A stretch of DNA of 64,000 nucleotides from Aurantiacibacter zhengii (GTDB taxonomy: Bacteria; Pseudomonadota; Alphaproteobacteria; Sphingomonadales; Sphingomonadaceae). The position numbers were made by a program, and so were the translations under genes. The stretch spans positions 434,001-498,000 of the forward strand of contig NZ_QXFL01000001.1 in assembly GCF_003584125.1 (NCBI RefSeq), read 5' to 3'. Within the stretch, counting starts at the first letter, position 1. Each line of letters opens with the position of its first letter. A model generated the notes under the pieces. It did not search any database and was not told the DNA's origin. It saw only the letters and a program-made list of their open reading frames with translations. Positions 43,236 to 45,777 of the stretch are shown in pieces.

Positions 43236-44060
43236 ATGATGGCCAGCGCGCCGAAAGCCAGTTTGCCCGTGTTCTACAAGGAACTGATTCCCCTTAACAG
43301 CAACGATCATGGCGACTGGAATGCGCGCACGGTCGACAAGGCACCCTGGGTTGCCGGTCAGCACGCCGTTCCGCTGACCGTTGAGGAATTCCCCTCCGCG
43401 CAGCGCAATTTCCCGATCGTCTTCTCCGCCGGTGACCGCTCCGTGCCGCTGGCGCTGATGGGCCTGAACGAAGGCGTGAACGTTTTCTTCGACGAAGACG
43501 GCGCACCGCGCGACGACACGCCGCCGTACATTCCGGCCTATATCCGCCGCTATCCCTTCCTGCTGGCAAAGCTGGACCAGAATTCCGACAACCTGTCGCT
43601 CTGCTTCGACCCGTCGAGCGATCTTGTCGGCAAGTTCGATGAGGGCCACCCCCTCTTCACCGGCGACAAGGAACCCAGCGAGCACGTGAAGGGCCTGCTG
43701 CAGTTCTGCGAGAAGTTCGAGGAAGCCGGCAACCGCACCCAGTTGTTTATGAAGGAACTGGAAGACCACGACCTGTTGATGGACGGCGAGATCGCGATCA
43801 ACCGGGCCGACAACCCCGAGCAGCCTTTCATCTATCGCGGTTTCCGCATGGTGAACCAGGACAAGCTGCGCGAACTGCGCGGCGACCAGCTGCGAAAGTG
43901 GAACGAGAACGGCCTGCTGCCGCTCATCTTCGCGCACCTGTTCTCGCTCGACCTCATGCGGAACATTTTCGCGCGCCAGGTGGAAATCGGCAAGGGTCCG
44001 CAGGGTATGACCGCAGGCGCAAACGCAGCGCCGGCCGAAACCGCCAAGAAGAAAAAGTAA
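43236..44060 (+). CDS. SapC family protein
   Basis: The 274-residue protein is soluble, without signal peptide, and carries the SapC pattern: FYKELIPLNSNDHGDW near the start, FPIVFSAGDRSVPLALMGL, then YIPAYIRRYPFLLA and CFDPSSDLV. SapC was named from S-layer loci of Campylobacter; in sphingomonads it often sits with TonB receptors and carbohydrate or halogenase genes, but here it stands alone. Function is unclear. Two adjacent ATG codons (43236, 43239) follow GGAG. Confidence 0.85.
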   Translation: MMASAPKASLPVFYKELIPLNSNDHGDWNARTVDKAPWVAGQHAVPLTVEEFPSAQRNFPIVFSAGDRSVPLALMGLNEGVNVFFDEDGAPRDDTPPYIPAYIRRYPFLLAKLDQNSDNLSLCFDPSSDLVGKFDEGHPLFTGDKEPSEHVKGLLQFCEKFEEAGNRTQLFMKELEDHDLLMDGEIAINRADNPEQPFIYRGFRMVNQDKLRELRGDQLRKWNENGLLPLIFAHLFSLDLMRNIFARQVEIGKGPQGMTAGANAAPAETAKKKK

Positions 44061-44113: not shown

Positions 44114-44142
44114 AGGGGCGGCTCTTCGGGGCCGCCCCTTTT
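44114..44142 (+). terminator. Intrinsic terminator of sapC
   Basis: AGGGGCGGC (44114-44122) pairs with GCCGCCCCT (44131-44139) around an 8-base loop and runs into TTTT. This should end the sapC transcript. Confidence 0.85.
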
Positions 44143-44152
44143 GCATGTGATC

Positions 44153-44180
44153 TTGAAACATTTTCCGGCAGGCTTATCTT
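44153..44180 (+). promoter_or_regulatory. Candidate promoter of the small RNA
   Basis: TTGAAA (44153-44158) and TATCTT (44175-44180) are 16 bases apart on the plus strand, starting 11 bases after the sapC terminator. They predict a start near 44187, at the base of the first RNA hairpin. Confidence 0.5.
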
Positions 44181-44186
44181 TGATTT

Positions 44187-44290
44187 GTCCGGCCGGCGCT
44201 CCCCTCATGGCCCGGCCGGATAGGTATGCTTTTGCATACCTCCTCCCTGAACCTTGGCCGCCTCGTGCTTCGCGCACGGGGCGGTTTTTT
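44187..44290 (+). ncRNA. Candidate anti-Shine-Dalgarno small RNA
   Basis: About 104 bases with three stem-loops. SL1 is a perfect 9-bp stem (TCCGGCCGG 44188-44196 with 44212-44220). SL2 is a perfect 8-bp stem with TTTT loop (AGGTATGC 44222-44229 with 44234-44241). SL3 is an 11-bp terminator stem with six T (44258-44290). CCTCCTCCC at 44239-44247, partly single-stranded after SL2, can pair with Shine-Dalgarno sequences. Alphaproteobacterial small RNAs such as the CcsR/cuckoo group carry this motif. A terminator for sapC lies upstream, so the second plus-strand terminator needs its own transcript. No homologue is claimed. Confidence 0.55.
44258..44290 (+). terminator. Intrinsic terminator of the candidate small RNA
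   Basis: CCGCCTCGTGC (44258-44268) pairs with GCACGGGGCGG (44274-44284, one G-U pair) around a TTCGC loop and is followed by six T. The T-run is only on the plus strand, so it does not serve the minus-strand gene that ends at 44296. Confidence 0.85.
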
Positions 44291-44295
44291 CTTGT

Positions 44296-45243
44296 TTATT
44301 CAGCAGCCTGTGCGAAGCCGTTCGCACCCTTCGCAACTTCGTCAGCCAGCCGCAGGACAAGCGCGGAGAGCAGCTGCGAGACGGCCTCGATCCCCTCGCC
44401 CGGCTCCCGCAGCTGGCGATCGAGATAGGTCGTGCGGCACACCTCCAGTTGCATCGCGGAAATTCCACGCGCCGGCGCACCGTGGCGATCCAGCACGTAG
44501 CCGCCAGCGTAGGGCCGGTTGTGGGCAGCGCGCACGCCCCGCTCCTCGAAATGATCGAGCGCGGCAGACACCAGAGTGCTCTCGCAGGAGGCGCCGAAGC
44601 GGTCTCCCACGACATAGTCGACAGCTGCCCCCTCGCCTGCTTTCGGCCCCAGGGGAGGCATCGAATGGAGGTCCAGCAGCAGCGCCCCGCCCCACTTGTC
44701 GCGCAAGGCTTCCAGCATCTGCGACAGGGCAAGGTGATAGGGCGTGTGCACCTGGTCGATCCGCTTCGACAGTTCCGCCGATGGCAGGCGGTGGCGCCAC
44801 AGTTCGCCCAGCCCCGGCAAGCGCCGCGGCACCAGGCCCAGCCCGCTGCGCGACCTGCGTCCTGCCGCAAGGCGCGAGCGCGCGAACCCGGCATGGGAGC
44901 CGGACACCATTTCCCAGTCCACATCCTCCGGCGAGCGATTGAGATCGATCATCGCCCTCGGCGCGCTGGCCACCAGCAGGGTGGCCCCCGTCGCCTCGCC
45001 AACGCCCCTTGCGATCAGGTCGACGTAGCGGTCCTCCAGCCGGGGCGCGGCTTCGGCGGGGTGGCGCATGCGGTTTATAAGGCTGAGCGGATAGTCGCGC
45101 CCTGCATGCGGCACGGCGATCAGCACCGGCAGCGCCAGCGCATTCCTGCGGTGCAGCACGAACGCGGGCTGGCCGTCGCCGCCAGGGATCAGGCCGCCTT
45201 CATGCGCCTGCGAATCGTTCGGGCCGGATGGACTGTGACTCAT
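44296..45243 (-). CDS. N-formylglutamate amidohydrolase family protein
   Basis: The 315-residue enzyme shows the FGase family signs: LIAVPHAGRDYP near the start, MIDLNRSPEDVD, a central HTPYHLALS, LLLDLHSMPP with metal-binding Asp/His, and a late HNRPYAGGYVLDRHG. The family hydrolyses N-formylglutamate in histidine breakdown, but stand-alone members may have other substrates. The ATG at 45243 (MSHSPSG) is chosen; the frame extends 13 codons further and no clear ribosome site decides. It is divergent from cpdR, a pairing often seen in alphaproteobacteria. Confidence 0.85.
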   Translation of the reverse strand: MSHSPSGPNDSQAHEGGLIPGGDGQPAFVLHRRNALALPVLIAVPHAGRDYPLSLINRMRHPAEAAPRLEDRYVDLIARGVGEATGATLLVASAPRAMIDLNRSPEDVDWEMVSGSHAGFARSRLAAGRRSRSGLGLVPRRLPGLGELWRHRLPSAELSKRIDQVHTPYHLALSQMLEALRDKWGGALLLDLHSMPPLGPKAGEGAAVDYVVGDRFGASCESTLVSAALDHFEERGVRAAHNRPYAGGYVLDRHGAPARGISAMQLEVCRTTYLDRQLREPGEGIEAVSQLLSALVLRLADEVAKGANGFAQAAE

Positions 45244-45402
45244 CTGGACATCAGTGCTGGCGGCGAAGGCTGGCCATGTCAAAGGCGGCGTGGATTGCTT
45301 TTGCCTGTCCCATTGCAGGTCAGGTGGTTTCAGGGGGCAGATTTTTAACGGGAATGTGCCTAGAGACGAGTTTCACACAGACTGACTGGAAGAGAAAGAA
45401 GC

Positions 45403-45777
45403 ATGATCCGAATCCTGCTGGCCGAAGACGATACTGCGATGCGCACTTACCTCACGCGCGCGCTGGAGCAGGCTGGCTTTTCGGTCGTCGCCGTTTCCTG
45501 CGGTACCGAGGCGATGCCCCTGCTGGAAACCGAGATCTACGACCTGCTGCTTTCCGACATCGTGATGCCCGAAATGGACGGGATCGAACTGGCCCAGCGC
45601 TGCAACGAACTGAGCCCTTCGACCAAGGTGATGTTCATCACCGGCTTTGCCGCCGTGGCGCTGAAGGCCAATCGCGAAACGCCCCACGCCAAGATGCTCT
45701 CCAAGCCCTTCCACCTGAAGGATCTGGTGCTGGAAGTGGAGCGCATGTTCGAAGATAATGCTGTCGCGTCGCTCTGA
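45403..45777 (+). CDS. cpdR: CpdR-type single-domain response regulator
   Basis: The 124-residue protein is a lone receiver domain with the acidic pair D9-D10, the phospho-acceptor D52 in LLSDIVMPEMDG, T80 in MFITGF and K101 in LSKPF. In Caulobacter, unphosphorylated CpdR primes the ClpXP protease for cell-cycle substrates and is phosphorylated through CckA-ChpT. Sequence and the neighbouring N-formylglutamate amidohydrolase gene fit CpdR well. tRNA-Val follows. Confidence 0.9.
   Translation: MIRILLAEDDTAMRTYLTRALEQAGFSVVAVSCGTEAMPLLETEIYDLLLSDIVMPEMDGIELAQRCNELSPSTKVMFITGFAAVALKANRETPHAKMLSKPFHLKDLVLEVERMFEDNAVASL

Follow-up and report, generated by a model that had tools for sequence, protein, structure and literature searches.

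A conserved small RNA gene between sapC and an N-formylglutamate amidohydrolase gene of Aurantiacibacter zhengii, a probable diverged member of the αr8 (MmgR/SuhB) family

The αr8 small RNAs are described as nearly universal in alphaproteobacteria; in Caulobacter they take part in the feast-to-famine switch, and elsewhere in storage or catabolite control. RNAs of the CcsR/cuckoo type (Rhodobacter) sit downstream of a DUF1127 gene. According to the available part of the Caulobacter SisA study (PMC12559287), αr8 sRNAs occur in all Alphaproteobacteria except Rickettsiales, most species have one copy adjacent to the gene for N-formylglutamate amidohydrolase (FGase), and the hallmarks of the family are a terminator and an internal UUUCCUCCCU located downstream of a weak hairpin. 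The same portion of the study describes repression of transporter and metabolic mRNAs by SisA together with Hfq, which for one mRNA was directly shown to act via the 10-mer. In the accessible sections of two further papers, Sphingopyxis granuli SuhB works together with Hfq at the thnR 5' UTR (PMC6563040) and MmgR limits storage granules (PMC7143759). MmgR (Sinorhizobium meliloti), SuhB (S. granuli TFA) and SisA-D (Caulobacter) were used as the αr8 comparison set; TFA SuhB was placed in αr8 by its name and by Rfam family RF00519, and it may correspond either to the FGase-linked copy or to the sibling described below. The sphingomonad form dealt with here was not seen among the papers listed in literature searches, and may be included in the αr8 phylogeny (reference 42 of PMC12559287) or in the original TFA SuhB paper; in the main text of a Zymomonas sRNA paper, as far as it was available (PMC6970203), suhB, SapC and formylglutamate were all absent.

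The locus and its predicted transcript

The stretch of DNA that was analysed (64,000 nt, the window) contains a gap of 235 nt between sapC and the convergent FGase gene, and this gap houses the whole predicted RNA gene. The features of the locus are collated in Table 1. An Rfam scan of the whole window at the curated cut-offs returned two tRNAs only.

Table 1. Predicted features of the sapC–FGase locus and the related RNA copy elsewhere in the same genome (window positions unless a contig is given).
Feature	Position	Strand	Remarks
sapC (SapC, PF07277), upstream of the RNA	43236..44060	+	Pfam 228 bits
Hairpin with TTTT, probable sapC terminator	44115..44142 (stem 44115-44139)	+	read from the sequence; omitted by the scanner
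-35 box TTGAAA	44153..44158	+	CTTG invariant in 30/30 same-genus loci
-10 box TATCTT	44175..44180	+	A invariant, flanking Ts kept in at least 80% (alignment of 30)
Predicted 104-nt RNA, probable sphingomonad form of the FGase-linked αr8	44187..44290	+	5' end placed from the -10 box
Hairpin 1, one-base bulge, covarying stem	44187..44221	+	
Loop 1 CCCCTCAT, second candidate seed	44201..44208	+	predicted unpaired probability at least 0.98
Hairpin 2, at the site of the weak hairpin of αr8	44222..44241	+	
Candidate single-stranded seed CCTCCCTGAACCTT, αr8 core	44242..44255	+	predicted unpaired probability at least 0.92
Intrinsic terminator, 13 pairs	stem 44256-44286, T-run to 44290	+	prediction and conservation
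FGase (PF05013), convergent	44296..45282	-	Pfam 209 bits
Response regulator, divergent from FGase	45403..45777		
suhB-type sibling	G000:C22:336262-336338 (L145:1263-1339)		54.6 bits; flanked by CoA-transferase and CDC48-type AAA genes

An earlier reading made from the sequence alone (the sequence-only reading) had proposed a separate sRNA gene at 44143-44290, ending at the second of two strong intrinsic terminators in series, with no coding frame between the two and with a fitting TTGAAA-16-TATCTT promoter. The sigma-70-like promoter was recovered at 44153-44180 (1 found versus 0.1 expected in shuffled sequences) and was conserved; in 44 of 46 other-genus loci the 53 nt examined also contained TTGA or TTGC, which is a loose test. 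The second terminator is supported by its conservation. As a bare consensus match it was not above chance (2 rows, both the same hairpin, versus 1.5 +/- 1.6 in shuffles), and it is considered credible because it is conserved and not because of the consensus scan. The hairpin on the sapC side is present, is followed by only four Ts and was not listed by the scanner.

ORFs of at least 40 aa do overlap 44143-44290 and are regarded as chance frames. The one that opens at the loop 1 ATG does not stay intact in relatives: a small protein translated from this ATG was rejected on the basis of a stop at codon 3 in 4 of 30 loci and, in 7 of the 30, a loop-to-core distance that does not fit the common frame. 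One other plus-strand frame was stop-free across about 108 nt in 27 of the 30 loci; it was taken as chance, because a conserved start was not seen, the stems covary and the sequence is GC-rich and largely invariant.

Folding of 44143-44295 gave -66.9 kcal/mol (shuffled sequences -47.6 +/- 3.8 kcal/mol; z -5.1), and the predicted 104-nt RNA folded with -61.7 kcal/mol, leaving loop 1 and the spacer between hairpin 2 and the terminator open. Both of the hairpins that had been described as perfect are present; hairpin 1 is not perfect, since it carries a one-base bulge. The motif CCTCCTCCC at 44239-44247 had been taken for a loop, and this had to be corrected: the 3' arm of hairpin 2 takes in its first three bases, and it is the spacer at 44242-44255 that stays open. 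By itself CCTCCTCCC is ordinary, with 20 copies in the genome versus 29 for the backwards pattern.

Conservation, covariation and occurrence

A BLAST search with 44143-44295 gave matches in 37 of 61 genomes, comprising all 37 genomes of the same genus (the genome under study included) and none of the 24 genomes from other families of the order. The match was restricted to the 3' third of the query in three cases (G004, G015 and G031). Thirty of the 37 same-genus copies were aligned (alignment A1), the other seven being left out. The -35 CTTG, the loop 1 sequence CCCTCATG (44202-44209) and the spacer CCTCCC were invariant in 30/30, the stems being variable; within the spacer, 13 of 14 columns were invariant and the remaining column was kept in at least 90% of the sequences. 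The sapC gene adjoined the RNA in all 30 loci, and a convergent FGase was present in 37/37 same-genus genomes.

A covariance model (R1) was built from the window's genus, and 46 other-genus loci, made up of 27 taken from the best-scoring matches and 19 picked from lower ranks among the 161 matching genomes outside the genus, were aligned on it (alignment A2). Stem covariation, which the sequence-only reading had proposed as a check, was found in both alignments. In A1, 19 of 31 pairs had changed on both sides, with 97.7% of cells paired; none of 500 shuffles matched any of the five measures, and the paired fraction dropped to 34-45% when the structure was slid along the alignment. For A2 the values were 26 of 31 pairs, 96.8% paired and 0/500 shuffles, although this alignment leans towards R1 because it was fitted to it. 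Changes on both sides were seen in 6/10 pairs of hairpin 1 (10/10 in A2) and 8/8 pairs of hairpin 2 in A1, and 100% of the cells of the terminator stem were paired (A1). R1 matched 165 of 199 genomes sampled from the family (83 of 96 genera), G000, G008 and G010 of the 199 belonging also to its training set. A chance structure was rejected on the basis of the fold energy and the stem covariation in both alignments. Judged by these comparisons, 44187-44290 is a conserved RNA gene, the product of which is most likely a genuine small regulatory RNA; the sequence-only reading was right about a separate sRNA gene with its own promoter, terminator and anti-Shine-Dalgarno stretch.

Named genomes were scanned with the exact 18-letter core, which gave at least 120 loci, 80 of those listed carrying titles. 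Among the matches listed, the titles were mostly Sphingomonas, Novosphingobium, Erythrobacter, Sphingobium, Croceicoccus, Tsuneonella and kin; a few were broad bin labels, and one read 'Actinobacteria bacterium'. A convergent FGase lay at most 600 nt away in 106 of the 120 listed loci, and SapC was found within the fetched stretch in 101. Of the 14 listed loci without FGase, five have less than 600 nt of downstream sequence and four are also without SapC. In three of the listed Sphingobium loci (L180, L221 and L242) the RNA core and SapC were kept, and FGase was not found in the fetched stretch. The response regulator beyond FGase, presumably CpdR-like, had a similar counterpart in 62 of the 80 titled loci among the matches listed, and a response regulator occupied this place in 11 of 20 FGase-linked loci chosen outside the family.

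The RNA might instead be a fragment of the sapC 3' end, or part of a terminator relay, rather than an independent gene; sapC lies upstream in most of the relatives examined, and its own hairpin is followed by only four Ts. Such an origin is very unlikely, given that a conserved promoter precedes hairpin 1 and that all 14 FGase-linked loci detected by R1 in other families of the order have the RNA but no SapC match in their 3-kb stretches.

Probable assignment to the αr8 family

The RF00519 (suhB/MmgR) model matched the window RNA over its full length with 31.6 bits, compared with a gathering threshold of 41 bits that is a curation threshold and not a biological feature; the E value was 5.5e-5 in 271 bases and 1.8e-4 in the whole genome. 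Two of the 37 same-genus copies at the FGase locus passed the threshold (G016, 44.1 bits; G004, 42.2 bits). In a search at E 0.1, 7 of 14 control genomes also matched, one of them (Caulobacter) over the cut-off, so weak matches to RF00519 can arise by chance.

In the other families of the order, an RF00519 copy was located beside FGase in 17 of 24 genomes, over the cut-off in all 17, and was not found there in the other seven (G037, G041, G044, G047, G049, G053 and G058). R1, applied at E up to 1, matched 21 of these 24 genomes, often weakly (9e-6 to 0.99). Its match coincided with the FGase-linked place in 14 of the 17 (E up to 0.5 among those 14), the exact αr8 10-mer being present in all 14 loci; the place was missed in G045, G051 and G054. 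At class level, RF00519 at 1e-5 matched 21 of 39 genomes, with no match in the other 18, and a convergent FGase was found in the 3-kb stretch, sometimes 500-800 nt off, in 14 of the 19 matching genomes outside the family.

Since position, anatomy and core agree, the gene at 44187-44290 is assigned with high, though not full, confidence to the FGase-linked αr8 sRNAs (the group that includes MmgR, SuhB and SisA of Caulobacter), of which it would be a diverged sphingomonad form spread through the bacterial family. It shares with αr8 the FGase neighbour, the terminator and a hairpin with single-stranded UCCUCCCU after it; many class-level αr8 loci likewise have a 5' hairpin before the Rfam core. 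It departs from αr8 in its low score, in SapC as second neighbour, in the invariant C-rich loop 1 and in the core, where the window 10-mer CCUCCUCCCU has 8 of the 10 αr8 letters and starts with three letters that are for the most part paired within hairpin 2, which is strong where the described one is weak. The score below the Rfam cut-off, the two changed letters and the strong hairpin 2 weigh against the assignment, as does a higher-scoring copy elsewhere in the genome without FGase.

This sibling is the better αr8 by sequence alone, with 54.6 versus 31.6 bits, and carries CCUCUCCC where the window RNA carries CCUCCUCCC. An RF00519 copy over the cut-off was found at another locus in 36 of the 37 same-genus genomes, and the FGase-linked copy is therefore the diverged one in the genus. 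Both neighbours of the sibling were found in 18 of the 19 same-genus sibling-type loci examined, and the CoA transferase in all 19. In some genomes suhB-type RNAs stand in tandem (two or three, about 220-290 nt apart), as at G019:C3:222982-223524 and G020:C65:7374-7670; further arrays were seen at G025:C36:199062-199367 and G276:C7:54432-55030. As the FGase-linked copy stays under the RF00519 threshold in 35 of the 37 same-genus genomes, annotation by threshold would find the sibling and miss the FGase-linked gene, a fault that could easily be mended with the alignment and covariance model.

A separate Sphingomonadales sRNA family could have replaced αr8 beside FGase, in which case the anti-Shine-Dalgarno motif and the terminator would be convergent. 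The sub-threshold score of the window copy, the departure of hairpin 2 and loop 1 from the αr8 consensus and the persistence of a canonical αr8 elsewhere in the genome would all fit such a replacement. It is nevertheless quite unlikely: graded intermediates occur at the same place, including the exact 10-mer in 4 of the 46 other-genus family loci; R1, built from the window's genus, detects the FGase-linked αr8 of 14 genomes in other families; and the order of elements (5' hairpin, hairpin 2, CCUCCCUGAAC, terminator) is shared. The FGase neighbour, the core, the RF00519 match and the continuity with the FGase-linked loci of other families place the RNA in αr8, and the label 'undescribed', given to it by the sequence-only reading, is not retained.

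That reading had also framed the RNA as CcsR/cuckoo-like, and had itself voiced doubt because no DUF1127 gene adjoins it. The doubt was justified: the neighbours are SapC and FGase, and nothing was found that links the RNA to CcsR. The RNA does carry CUCCUCCC, as CcsR does, but in a spacer and not in a loop. Membership in the CcsR/cuckoo group or in αr14/NfeR1 (RF02344), RNAs with anti-Shine-Dalgarno loops, is extremely unlikely. SorX and SorY reached 13-15 bits, and no CcsR/cuckoo row was among the 21 Rfam rows, a collection that may or may not include such a family. The ar14 model, whose hairpins likewise bear C-rich anti-Shine-Dalgarno letters, matched over its full length; its 30.3 bits are far under the 58.8-bit cut-off, nine pairs of the middle hairpin are mismatched and the spacer anti-Shine-Dalgarno motif lies outside the loops. 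In αr14 the motif is found in all three loops, according to the part of PMC7143759 available, whereas the window RNA has one C-rich loop and one spacer. CcsR, SorX/SorY and ar14 were rejected on scores, neighbours and architecture; ncS025, PyrR, HepC_CRE and the other weak Rfam rows were treated as chance.

AbcR1/AbcR2 (αr15, S. meliloti) resemble the window RNA in having two anti-Shine-Dalgarno elements, namely CUCCUCCC and UUCCCCUC in AbcR and CUCCUCCC and CUCCCCUC in the window RNA, the latter forming part of loop 1 and resembling the second AbcR motif. The two AbcR elements act independently, as stated in the available part of PMC8844928. Their arrangement is reversed: in AbcR the 5' loop bears CUCCUCCC, and UUCCCCUC stands between the stems. 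The neighbours also differ. A separate αr15 score was not seen among the Rfam rows, where clan overlap may hide one.

Candidate seeds, targets and the FGase transcript

The C-rich loop 1, CCCUCAUG, is invariant in the genus on a stem that covaries, and therefore resembles a pairing site. In the 46 other-genus loci, loop 1 read CCCUCAUG in 27 and CCCCCUUU in 13, and the six remaining variants, determined by eye, were CCCCUCAUA, CCCCCCUUG, CCCCCUCAG, CCCCCG, CCCCUCCC and CCCCCUCUC. That the 5' hairpin itself is a sphingomonad invention was rejected on account of the 5' hairpins of class-level αr8 loci; only its conserved C-rich loop looks lineage-specific, and C-rich loops also occur in some other-family loci (e.g., L121, L128 and L139). 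What looks new in the sphingomonad form is the combination of a diverged hairpin 2, two changes in the 10-mer and an invariant C-rich 5' loop.

The following course of action is proposed for the RNA. A housekeeping promoter would give a transcript of about 104 nt ending at the terminator, with Hfq probably bound at the 3' end. The RNA should act like its αr8 relatives through its open spacer CCUCCCUGAACC, which would stop the translation of many mRNAs by pairing with their Shine-Dalgarno regions; the invariant C-rich loop of hairpin 1 possibly does the same, so that this second conserved loop may give the RNA extra targets. Nutrient uptake and metabolism would be tuned in this way, with the canonical sibling presumably sharing the family role.

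Target prediction, likewise proposed by the sequence-only reading, yielded candidate sites and weak leads only. AGGGAGGA at 2-10 nt before ATG gave 9 genome sites (one being the antisense of the RNA itself) versus 4 for the reversed pattern, AGGGAGG with 3-10 nt gave 37 versus 15, and the loop 1 complement TGAGGGGA gave 9 versus 2. Twenty-nine sites were translated (9 for AGGGAGGA, 9 for TGAGGGGA and 11 chosen of the 37 for AGGGAGG); the frame was at least 150 aa long in 10 and shorter than 100 aa in 19. Ten proteins were subjected to a family scan, from which one 182-aa frame (L352) was left out. The leads were a ClpB-type AAA protein, TraE and a photosynthetic reaction-centre protein for loop 1, and a Band 7 protein, DUF2497, a TrbI-like protein, a fatty acid hydroxylase, TraN and a low-molecular-weight phosphatase for the spacer; one of the ten had no family, and no TonB-dependent receptor was among them. 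No target is claimed, because reversed patterns are a poor control for a Shine-Dalgarno sequence. Ahead of the ClpB-type gene, TGAGGGGA was found by script in 2 of 20 loci. TGAGGG, the complement of the loop 1 core CCCUCA, was seen by eye before the ClpB-type start in 12 of 19 same-genus loci (L365-L383). The photosynthetic reaction-centre gene of the window's genome (L349:140-1111) has TGAGGGGA ahead of its ATG.

The FGase stop codon sits 5 nt past the T-run of the RNA. For the 72 listed titled loci with a convergent FGase, the median distance between T-run and FGase stop was 13 nt (71 measured, -4 to 275). Beyond the FGase stop, the FGase strand has no stretch of at least four Ts in 44170-44295, an interval that covers the whole RNA, and a T-run between the stop and loop 1 was present in 1 of the 72 listed titled loci (T-runs were scored, not hairpins). 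Transcription of FGase may therefore continue through the RNA in antisense, although the lack of a T-run is weak evidence and Rho could end the transcript earlier. In sphingomonads the FGase-linked αr8 might be a two-seed regulator, with the invariant loop 1 picking targets of its own, and the FGase mRNA an antisense sponge that relieves αr8 repression; we regard this combined proposal as speculative and rather unlikely.

With the invariant C-rich loop 1, it becomes directly testable whether a single sRNA family has acquired a second targeting site, as in AbcR. If the sponge proposal were true, the linkage to FGase would itself be functional, in that expression of FGase would relieve repression by αr8.
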